Shown here piece by piece: positions 47,364 through 49,157 of a stretch of 64,000 nt of DNA (position 1 is its first letter; each line of letters opens with the position of its first letter). This stretch comes from an uncultured Bacteroidales bacterium. GTDB lineage: Bacteria > Bacteroidota > Bacteroidia > Bacteroidales > Paludibacteraceae. Below the pieces are notes generated by a model. That model searched no databases. It was not told the DNA's origin and worked only from the letters and a program-made list of their open reading frames with translations. The stretch is from NCBI GenBank assembly GCA_900321005.1, contig ONUF01000002.1, positions 39,294-103,293 of the forward strand. The letters are read 5' to 3'. The position numbers were made by a program, and so were the translations under genes.

Positions 47364-47990
47364 CTACCTAACCATCTTTCCTTGGGTGTCGTAGATGTGA
47401 TCGGGACTTTCGATATACACTTGATCTTTTTTGAGTACTTTGCGTGCCGACTTCCGCGGAGCCGAAGGTGTTTCTACATCCTGTGCTTCACCGTTGCCAG
47501 GAAGAGAATAAATACGTGCCCCCTGACCATAAGATTTGGACACAATTAACAAGTATTTTCCATCAACGCTAACTATATATGAATTGTACCCGTACCCACC
47601 TTCAAGCAAAGTTTCTACTAATTGTCCATCTTCATTATATATACAAAGTTTGCCATCGCCAGTCGTTACCGTAAAACAGACCTTATTATCCGTGGTAAAA
47701 ATATTTCTTGATACTAATTCGGCAAATCCACAATCACCAATATTAGTAATATGAACTGATTTGTATAATGAAAAATCATCCTTCTCGTATAAATTCAAAA
47801 TAAGGCCTTCATTATTACTATCTTGGTCAGATTCATAGAAATATGGGGCTTCTATGTTATAACCATAGATACTAGCATAAGGGTTAACAGTTACTGACAC
47901 ATTGCTTTCAAAAATGTGCAACAGCGTAATTTGAGCGTTAGCAAATGTAGCCGCAAATAAGGCTGTGAGAATAAAGATAGATTTTTTCAT
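47364..47990 (-). CDS. Secreted protein with C-terminal sorting-like tail
   Basis: A 208-residue protein with a signal peptide (MKKSIFILTALFAATFANAQ, cleavage after ANA). The middle resembles beta-propeller-like blades (GGYGYNSYIVSVDGKYLLIV). It ends in a tail KVLKKDQVYIESPDHIYDT-QGKMVR, which aligns with the tail of the protein at 59771-61318: KVL+xxQ-x-IE-xxD-xxY-xxxG-xxV+. Such tails may be type IX secretion or surface-sorting signals. No enzymatic motif is seen. Its leader contains the structured element at 48021-48156 and no standard promoter. Confidence 0.75.
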   Translation of the reverse strand: MKKSIFILTALFAATFANAQITLLHIFESNVSVTVNPYASIYGYNIEAPYFYESDQDSNNEGLILNLYEKDDFSLYKSVHITNIGDCGFAELVSRNIFTTDNKVCFTVTTGDGKLCIYNEDGQLVETLLEGGYGYNSYIVSVDGKYLLIVSKSYGQGARIYSLPGNGEAQDVETPSAPRKSARKVLKKDQVYIESPDHIYDTQGKMVR

Positions 47991-48020
47991 AATGATTCAA
48001 TTATTATATGATTAAACAAA

Positions 48021-48156
48021 AAAATGGACGTTCCTTATCCATTTCGAGGCTGTAGGAATTGCCCACCAAGTCGATAAGTCACGCCCATATATACTATGGA
48101 CGTCCGCTGACTTATTTAGACTTGGTTCAAAACTTCCTACATTCCGAAATGTCTAA
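48021..48156 (-). ncRNA. Candidate structured RNA / attenuator
   Basis: Four nested helices on the minus strand: CATTTCG/CGAAATG extended through a tandem G-A mismatch to TTA/TAA; TGTAGGAA/TTCCTACA; CCAAGTC/GACTTGG; ATAAGTCA/TGACTTAT. They enclose an apical 7-bp hairpin GTCCATA/TATGGGC. An 8/7-nt internal loop interrupts the stack. The 3' strand (AATGGATAA) can instead pair within ATGGA...TCCAT followed by seven T, a competing terminator. It lies between a Bro-N gene and a secreted-protein gene. No known RNA family is recognised. Confidence 0.65.
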
Positions 48157-48219
48157 TAAATCGCAAACGCGAAATTCAATATGTCCTTGCTTTTTTACGC
48201 TGTCAAGGCCAGCGATATA

Positions 48220-49104
48220 TTAGTTTTTCTTATCTTCTTCCTCGAATGGCAACTCTTCCGCCTTACTTTCTTCTATTGATTTAAGGTAATCTGATGCCTT
48301 CGCCGAAGAGATAATACTGCGTCCGAGACCTTTTTCGATGTTTTCACGCGCTGCACGCGCTGCGTCACCACCTTTTTTAGCTACTTTCTTATTTGCCGCA
48401 ACTCCTTTAGGATTATATTGCTTCGAGTACTCAGTAGTAGCGGCCTCTGCTAAGGTATTGAGCGCCAATTCCAAATTGGTCATATTGTCTCGAAGGTTCT
48501 CTTTCTTGAGACCTTTAAATTTCTTATATTCTCCTGTTGTCTTACCGCTCCATGCCTTCGTGATAATATCCGTCAAAAGCGCAAAATCGCGACCTTCTTG
48601 CATCCCTCCACGTTTCCACTCATCCGTCAACTCCTTACGGGTTTCGATGGACTTGACACGCTGGTTAATCCAATTCTCTCCGTAGCCTAAGCGGCGATAG
48701 TCATTAATAGCTTGTTGTATCGATAATTCCGGATCTTGTACTTGATCTAAACGGGCGCTACCCACTTGCGCTAACCATTGTTTGACAGGTTCTGCTTTCT
48801 TGGAAGGAATAGACTGAATAATACGTAGTAGTCGCTCTGTATCAGCTACATCCGTAGAGTAGTTTTTCCCATCAGCAGCTGGCAATTTCAGTTGCTTACA
48901 ATTTGTAATCAACTCATTTGCACCTTCTTGTTTAAGGCGTTTCTTAAGTACAGCCCAATAGGTACTTGCACCGCGCGCATCAGGTTGGTCAGTTAATACA
49001 CCAACGACATCAGTAACAGAAAAATAGTATTTCTGTTCCTCGTCATCCCATACGATGCGTACTTGCTTGTCGTCAAATGCTTGTATTTTTAGTTCACGAG
49101 ACAT
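48220..49104 (-). CDS. Bro-N domain protein, DinD-like (copy 1)
   Basis: A 294-residue protein whose first 110 residues resemble the Bro-N domain (VRIVWDDEEQKYYFSVTDVV, YWAVLKKRLKQEG, LKLPAADGK). The rest matches DinD-like proteins: SIPSKKAEPVKQWLAQ, LTDEWKRGGMQEGRDFALL, NLRDNMTNLELALNTLAE. DinD of E. coli is damage-inducible and inhibits RecA filaments; that role here is inference. The acidic end EELPFEEEDKK may bind a partner. A 294-residue paralog lies at 58800-59684. A short 22-nt leader follows its promoter. Confidence 0.85.
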   Translation of the reverse strand: MSRELKIQAFDDKQVRIVWDDEEQKYYFSVTDVVGVLTDQPDARGASTYWAVLKKRLKQEGANELITNCKQLKLPAADGKNYSTDVADTERLLRIIQSIPSKKAEPVKQWLAQVGSARLDQVQDPELSIQQAINDYRRLGYGENWINQRVKSIETRKELTDEWKRGGMQEGRDFALLTDIITKAWSGKTTGEYKKFKGLKKENLRDNMTNLELALNTLAEAATTEYSKQYNPKGVAANKKVAKKGGDAARAARENIEKGLGRSIISSAKASDYLKSIEESKAEELPFEEEDKKN

Positions 49105-49125: not shown

Positions 49126-49157
49126 CAAAAATACTATTTTTTTTGCAAATATACAAA
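49126..49157 (-). promoter_or_regulatory. Promoter of Bro-N copy 1
   Basis: Minus-strand -33 TTTG (49154-49157), 20-bp spacer, -7 TATTTTTG (49126-49133). No obvious LexA-type operator is seen. Confidence 0.6.

Follow-up and report, generated by a model that had tools for sequence, protein, structure and literature searches.

What lies between a Bro-N domain gene and the gene for a predicted secreted protein in the genome of an uncultured Bacteroidales bacterium, and what might it do for its neighbours? The window, a 64,000-nucleotide stretch of DNA, contains on its minus strand, at 48021..48156, a segment that a sequence-only reading had put forward as a new structured RNA. It was described as a long hairpin of stacked helices, the distal 3' strand of which could either close the outer helix or form a local ATGGA...TCCAT hairpin in front of seven T, an arrangement likened to an attenuator or riboswitch, or to an independent small RNA with its own terminator. 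That description raises the questions of whether the fold is real, whether the alternative pairings are retained in homologs, and which genes such a device would serve.

The window RNA and its parts

The minus strand of 47990-48220 has a predicted minimum free energy of -71.1 kcal/mol, against a mean of -48.66 (s.d. 4.41) for 200 dinucleotide shuffles of the same segment, none of which was as good (z -5.09). This upholds the proposed long hairpin of stacked helices. The individual helices are likewise present, with lengths that differ from the first description by a pair or so, and the P1/P2 internal loop is 7/6 rather than 8/7.

The element extends past 48021-48156. The RNA family core, comprising the long hairpin, the tail and the U-tract, was delimited by a covariance-model match to 48012..48174 (minus strand, as are all features of the element), and a 5' pseudoknot module is located at 48185..48214. 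The core scores 172.7 bits with model R1, built from 27 sequences, and 154.6 bits with model R2, built from 83, the window copy being among the training sequences of both.

Read in the direction of transcription, the H-type pseudoknot module comes first, with a CGCTG/CAGCG stem and a CCTTG loop that pairs with CAAGG across an A-rich linker. It is followed by a small hairpin, CGCGTTTGCG (48162..48171), of which the three counted pairs are formed in 24-26 of 27 homologs, and by segment S, ATTTATTAGACA (48150..48161). Segment S was identified from duplex and swap tests (see below) as an alternative partner of arm A, with which it forms an 11-bp duplex with one bulge in the window (-7.4 kcal/mol). 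The main hairpin is built from P0 (5' strand 48144..48151, 3' strand 48040-48049), P1 (5' strand 48134..48141, 3' strand 48051-48058) and an apical part, in which segment A (48096..48126) contains the 5' strands of P2, P3 and P4 and segment B (48065..48088) their 3' strands; the boundaries of P0-P4 were counted by hand along the RNA. The A:B duplex has a predicted energy of -29.2 kcal/mol. Segment B can pair with A or with segment T, the tail GATAAGGAACGTCCAT (48024..48039), and the B:T duplex reaches -20.9 kcal/mol for the whole tail and -11.2 kcal/mol for its distal part. The end of T also makes a local 5-bp hairpin with 48038-48042 (-7.2 kcal/mol in the window), and the element closes with a U-tract of seven T (48018..48024).

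Covariation supports mutually exclusive pairings

A MAFFT alignment was made of 27 homologs, 26 from the genus of the window and one from RUG14494. The 40 pairs of the hairpin are formed in 96.7% of 1070 alignment cells. Compensatory changes, which the sequence-only reading had named as the check on its proposal, are abundant: 20 of the 40 pairs have both partners changed (shuffle mean 13.1), and such double changes occupy 126 cells (shuffle mean 32.7), values reached in 0/500 shuffles in either case. When the partner strand was slid by 1-3 columns, pairing amounted to 32-47% (maximum 46.5%). All seven pairs of P0 change on both sides, and P1 is paired in 99.5% of cells and is flanked by conserved internal loops. 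Overall, the sequences of P0 and P2 vary almost freely while pairing is retained, and the letters around P1 are conserved.

The same alignment supports the B:T helix, its 13 pairs being formed in 351 of 351 cells. Five of the 13 are changed on both sides, with 15 such cells against a shuffle mean of 2.9, and the slid versions are 32-54% paired. On the MAFFT columns of these 27 homologs, S:A is 88.2% paired with zero double changes, and 500/500 shuffles were as high; its register differs between copies on this alignment.

An alignment-free test was also applied, in which the duplex energy of a segment pair within one copy is compared with the energies of pairs swapped between copies. For 83 homologs the own pairs were more stable than the swapped pairs in all three cases (in kcal/mol: A:B -25.3 versus -16.6, z -25.7; B:T -20.1 versus -16.3, z -12.0; S:A -8.2 versus -6.3, z -9.7; 0/2000 for each). 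The control pairings S:B, A:T and S:T gave null results in the same 83 homologs (z 1.1, 0.0 and -0.4). Two further sets of hits from outside model building, some of them from genomes that also supplied training copies, behaved similarly. A:B, B:T and S:A gave z scores of -22.3, -13.1 and -7.2 in the 61-hit set (controls: S:B 3.0, A:T 0.3 and S:T -2.3, the last with 18/2000) and of -16.3, -10.0 and -8.0 in the 45-hit set (controls 0.9, 0.0 and -1.7). The A:B values in these sets arise partly by selection, the copies having been found with the hairpin model; B:T and S:A are not among the pairs of that model. When all 189 copies were pooled and thinned to 102 at a string similarity below 0.80, the three pairings scored -30.5, -17.8 and -12.5, with S:B, A:T and S:T at 1.8, -0.2 and -1.2.

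These pairings exclude one another. A:B and B:T share arm B, so B cannot pair with A and T together, and S:A and A:B share arm A. On average 65% of the S:A positions on A are paired with B in the hairpin, and 93% of the B:T positions on B are paired with A. The earlier view of a tail with more than one possible partner is supported, and to it is added a longer chain that had gone unseen, S:A against A:B against B:T. Support extends to the attenuator layout proposed at the outset, in which pairings compete and the end resembles a terminator.

The 5' pseudoknot was examined in the same way with 26 candidate motifs from loci L001-L091, about four of which look like chance matches. Loop and tail were more stable in own than in swapped combinations (-5.06 versus -3.63 kcal/mol, z -4.9, 0/5000). 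Nine diverged relatives (L004, L005, L006, L007, L026, L028, L031, L037 and L040) share this module and have other long hairpins, with a complementary tail kept as judged by eye, and some of them give weak R1 scores. Diverged relatives with a common pseudoknot module suggest that several sub-families exist.

Terminator and promoter signals

Of 189 copies, 89% have a terminal run of at least four T, compared with 23% of 752 control windows; about 11% of copies have no run of four T. Both the B:T stem and the local tail hairpin end at the U-tract. The two were compared in 181 copies, eight of the 189 having been left out for lack of a recognised tail or T-run or for a tail of insufficient length. 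For the local hairpin the own energy was -6.56 kcal/mol against -4.91 for swapped pairs (z -11.6), and for the distal part of B:T it was -9.35 against -8.0 (z -9.8). The local ATGGA...TCCAT hairpin before the seven T is real, and it co-varies across copies. It reaches -5 kcal/mol or better in 99 of the 181 copies, and 82 are without a predicted local hairpin. Distal B:T attains -5 kcal/mol in 165 of 181, a level to which the average swapped pair comes as well. Both stems are found in 92 copies, B:T alone in 73, the local hairpin alone in seven and neither in nine. Since the two co-vary about equally strongly, either may terminate transcription, and B:T need not be the terminator.

The motif TAnnTTTG, the Bacteroidetes -7 box, precedes the RNA by no more than 250 nt on its own strand in 135 of 186 copies (three of the 189 lacked flanks). 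The opposite strand carries it in 39 copies, and the downstream side in 27. In the 136 of 189 copies that have such a box, its median distance to the RNA is 57.5 nt and the middle half lies at 40-74 nt.

The window locus

In the window, the downstream gene (47364..47990, minus strand) encodes a protein of 208 aa with a signal-peptide-like start by a crude test. It has no family match above cut-off (Pfam gave a sub-threshold Str_synth match alone and NCBIfam none). The upstream gene (48220..49104, minus strand) encodes a Bro-N domain protein of 294 aa (Pfam PF02498, 3.4e-9). Relatives of this protein, with 49-63% identity, are encoded in four human-gut phage records that carry no annotation and derive from faecal samples. 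The protein's NCBIfam match to DNA damage-inducible protein D falls far short of the cut-off. The RNA element begins a few nucleotides past the Bro-N stop codon, and the gap from the RNA to the downstream gene is 21 nt.

Two candidate Bacteroidetes-type -7 boxes precede the Bro-N gene by pattern match, TATTTTTG (49126..49133, minus strand) and TATATTTG (49146-49153, minus strand). The same pattern search turned up no box over the 400 nt that precede the core of the window copy, and none was seen on reading the stretch from the U-tract to the gene, in agreement with the initial remark that the downstream gene has no other visible promoter. The boxes before Bro-N, together with their absence from the 400 nt before the core, suggest that a single transcript may span the Bro-N gene, the RNA and the gene for the secreted protein.

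Elsewhere in the same genome, at L002, L003, L005 and L007, the gene before the RNA encodes a DUF2442 protein in two cases and a YoeB-type toxin or DUF1016 nuclease in the others. The genes upstream of the RNA in this genome, including the Bro-N gene of the window, have an accessory, defence-like character.

Family size and distribution

The 2.1-megabase draft genome that holds the window contains at least nine matches to R2, one of them a truncated copy; all nine candidates scored there were matches. At the DNA level, a 231-base stretch has two near full-length relatives in this genome, with 82% and 79% identity, and shorter matches elsewhere. A DNA search of 61 genomes (the own genome, 36 others of the genus and 24 of other families of the order) matched 25 at E 0.001 or better, all within the genus. 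Four uncultured Bacteroidales contigs (RUG372, RUG14494 and RUG281), presumably from rumen genomes, contain an exact copy of a 29-base pattern taken from this module at the 5' end of the RNA.

The covariance models reached considerably further. In the genus R1 matched 45 of 61 genomes; the corresponding figures were 29 of 61 for the family and 25 of 198 for the order. R2, with up to seven candidates scored in each genome, matched at least 153 of 393 Bacteroidales genomes, in at least 93 of 206 genera, and across the phylum Bacteroidota at least 31 of 296 genomes, 29 of them outside Bacteroidales. The E-values of both models are rough, and the copy numbers are lower bounds, scoring having been capped at 7 to 47 candidates per genome. 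The finding is bigger than the sequence-only reading had it, the window RNA being one copy of a large, apparently undescribed Bacteroidota family.

Genes downstream of the RNA

Within the group of the window (36 loci, 33 of the genus and three on uncultured Bacteroidales contigs), 29 of the 36 downstream frames have a crude signal-peptide signature. Two further shared motifs were noted by eye: a CCAAACGGGGCAAGACCUGCGAAGCCGCAAGAGCAGG-like leader motif that follows the U-tract and precedes the start codon of genes for secreted proteins at L011, L012, L015, L016, L021 and L034, and a common AAACCGATGnnGCGATGGGATA-type stretch just before the start codon at L006, L017, L020, L033 and L035.

Outside the genus, a DNA methyltransferase gene lies downstream in at least 43 of 122 Bacteroidales loci. 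These comprise 45 loci from the R1 scans of the family and order, with one locus of the own genus set aside, 17 from the R2 scans and a further 60. The 122 were taken from the upper part of the score range rather than drawn at random, and some stem from the same genome; the Pfam scan covered 61 of them, mostly those without evident signal peptides, so 43 is a lower bound. These methyltransferases comprise 13 of N6_N4, 12 of N6, seven of MmeI (three of which are under the Pfam cut-off), four of C5, three of EcoRI and one of D12 type, with three PADLOC type II methylases; some of the Pfam families cross-match, being different families of one broad fold. At L221, one of the 43, the methyltransferase lies 452 nt downstream. 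Across 45 methyltransferase or other defence-gene loci the start codon follows the model match at a median of 62 nt. Other downstream genes encode ResIII helicases (L127 and L205), a DarT-like protein (L145), a dynamin-like protein (L215) and lipoproteins or secreted proteins. No downstream frame was found at L099 (contig end), L162, L170, L173 or L244. Neither reverse transcriptase nor TnpB nor IscB was present among the Pfam-scanned downstream proteins. A 69-71 aa HTH-like protein of MEKVHIGSIIRGELRKQNK type was observed directly after the RNA, at -1 to 64 nt, in nine loci (L100, L122, L149, L150, L227, L228, L230, L232 and L236); L150 and L232 gave no Pfam match, and L100 and L232 gave weak NCBIfam matches only.

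Among the 28 loci outside Bacteroidales (L157-L184), there were zero methylases in the six proteins scanned with Pfam, and L160 and L163 encode TonB-receptor Plug proteins by Pfam. In other orders, the RNA was seen some 220-370 nt before genes resembling TonB-dependent (SusC-type) receptors at L160, L163, L165, L167, L168, L171, L178 and L184.

The methylase association was also approached from the opposite direction. Thirty EcoRI-type methylase loci were collected from 28 of 247 Bacteroidales genomes, and eight of the 30 carry an R2 match upstream, on the same strand and 53-74 nt before the methylase-profile match. Five of the eight have E-values of 0.0053 or better and three of 0.011-0.038. 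One, L254, is identical with L093, an R2 training locus, and the other seven are not training loci. The sole other R2 match in these loci (L272, E 0.93) lies inside a gene. That even the weak matches fall in the right place argues that R2 undercounts. By the same procedure 30 C5 methylase loci, taken from a longer list, gave one R2 match, 834 nt before the domain, which means that the association does not hold for methylases at large.

In the methylase class, B has a further partner, T2, the 35-80 nt that separate the model match from the start codon. For 41 loci, namely 38 methylase loci with L127, L205 and L145 (four loci with other gaps were excluded), the own B:T2 energy was -24.4 kcal/mol compared with -18.9 for swapped pairs (z -9.0, 0/2000), and the same stretch with A, S and T gave z scores of 0.8, -2.3 and 0.5. 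In ten chosen examples, with energies from -27 to -46 kcal/mol, B:T2 takes up the greater part of the hairpin's 3' half. Outside the genus, secreted-protein loci give a weak B:T2 signal (n=29, z -2.6, 19/2000), and the group of the window gives none (n=7, z -0.2). After read-through, such pairing could control translation or stability.

A proposed transcription attenuator and the alternatives

The order of the segments, S-A-B-T, and the competition of A:B against S:A plus B:T provide the logic of an attenuator. Judged from sequence, the RNA is probably a cis-acting leader that acts as a transcription attenuator. During transcription, S would first hold arm A. Once B emerged it could take A, forming the long hairpin as an antiterminator and permitting read-through into the secreted-protein gene; alternatively B would stay free and form a terminator by pairing with T immediately ahead of the U-tract. 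That role might instead fall to the local tail hairpin, or to both stems. The choice of state would most likely be made by a binder of the conserved core around P1, either a protein or a small molecule. We infer, rather than observe, transcription of the element, the stem that terminates it, the default state and the control of the switch by a ligand or protein. The calculated energies in the window, -29.2 kcal/mol for A:B versus -7.4 for S:A, also mean that folding may never leave the long hairpin.

A strict metabolite riboswitch, with the P1 core as aptamer and the exchange of A, B and T as expression platform, is possible though somewhat doubtful. The conserved internal-loop letters beside P1, set among helices P0 and P2 that change freely, speak for it, as does the attenuator-like platform; against it, the downstream genes (DNA methylases, secreted proteins and TonB receptors) have no pathway in common that would indicate a metabolite, and the conserved loops could equally be a protein site. 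This reading is a special case of the attenuator leader and overlaps with it.

An independent trans-acting small RNA, with its own promoter and terminator and with incidental neighbour genes, is unlikely. The promoter-like box before most copies and the U-tract at the end are consistent with it, as is the presence of many paralogs per genome, in the manner of the FopS family of Bacteroides (PMC11697453). The tight start-codon spacing in the methyltransferase class argues against it, both in the median distance and in the reverse test, as do gaps to the gene that are sometimes too short for another promoter (as in the window) and the use of one leader for different methylase families.

It is also improbable that the element is simply a strong terminator without a switch, which in the window would belong to the Bro-N 3' UTR and would act through the local ATGGA/TCCAT hairpin. 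That hairpin is stable in just over half of the copies and co-varies, and the position of the element so soon after the Bro-N stop codon would suit such a role, but this explanation leaves the co-variation of S:A and B:T unaccounted for, and the local hairpin is not predicted in the remaining copies. The other loci of the same genome, moreover, have different upstream genes, and a promoter-like box stands shortly before the RNA in most copies.

A mobile or recombining DNA element, such as a MITE or an attC-like site with palindromes acting as DNA, is very improbable: the family is multi-copy, lies before different genes and has several matches near contig ends, but the U-tract, the A-rich pseudoknot linker, the G-U pairs and the gene-ward orientation fit an RNA. 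Two specific candidates of this kind were rejected. An integron attC site has RYYYAAC and GTTRRRY boxes at its two ends, and such boxes flank one of 189 copies, the same as for shuffled flanks (1/189). For a phage or plasmid element, blastn gave no match for the queries tried (the window element and L098 against plasmids and phages, and L108 against phages).

Returning to the attenuator leader, a broader proposal can be made tentatively, with the balance slightly against it as it stands: that a phylum-wide Bacteroidota RNA switch governs defence genes (varied restriction-modification methylases) together with surface and secreted genes, and that the methylase class adds B:T2 as a translational or stability control. 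If this were true, the leader would let a host tune horizontally gained methylases whatever their sequence family.

Comparison with known systems

No Rfam 15 family matched the window at the gathering score except for tRNA elsewhere, the best score on the element being 19.3 bits for GP20-a against a threshold of 47.2, and 20 homolog loci gave tRNAs alone. The claim that the structured RNA is new is consistent with these searches. Unannotated by Rfam, yet present in about two fifths of the sampled Bacteroidales genomes, the family marks a large annotation gap in a major bacterial group. Its placement before varied methylases suggests a common RNA-level control of restriction-modification genes, whereas control of these genes is usually discussed in terms of proteins. 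A search of the open PubMed Central literature, by title and start of abstract, found no RNA leader of restriction-modification genes in Bacteroidetes.

The dismissal of a 6S-like fold was sound. 6S RNA, including 6S-Flavo (RF01685), is likewise a long interrupted hairpin and is usually present in one or two copies per genome; here there is no Rfam match, the own genome holds the several matches given above, and, by comparison with 6S-Flavo, the conserved core consists of P1 and its loops.

Three published sets of Bacteroidetes RNAs offer further comparisons. FopS and GibS of Bacteroides thetaiotaomicron form a multicopy family with an intrinsic terminator at the end, a feature that the RNA described here would share; the FopS RNAs are approximately 65-70 nt long, have a single-stranded 5' seed and act in trans, whereas the present RNA is approximately 165-230 nt, highly folded and situated before genes (PMC11697453). 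Fremin and Bhatt (2021) describe palindromic, terminator-associated candidates (HMP2_4205 and others), mostly from Bacteroidetes; the neighbours named for them, TPR, RuvA and TonB, differ from those found here, and overlap with the 3161 candidates is possible (PMC8040213). Many of the Bacteroidetes motifs of Weinberg et al. (2010) have an Rfam number, and the few that do not include Bacteroides-2 and GUCCY-hairpin (PMC2864571).

In its mode of operation, the proposed device most resembles two classical systems. Riboswitches with terminator platforms likewise combine a conserved core with exclusive pairings before a U-tract in an apparent 5' leader, and differ from the present family, which has no common downstream pathway and many copies per genome. 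In a trp-type attenuator, segments 1:2 and 3:4 compete with 2:3, and a U-tract follows 3:4. The same four-segment competition before a U-tract is found here, with the differences that no leader peptide was noticed on a casual look, that the large P0/P1 core interrupts the segments, and that the RNA precedes defence and secreted-protein genes rather than amino-acid genes. Overall, this is an apparently new RNA family of a known kind of device.
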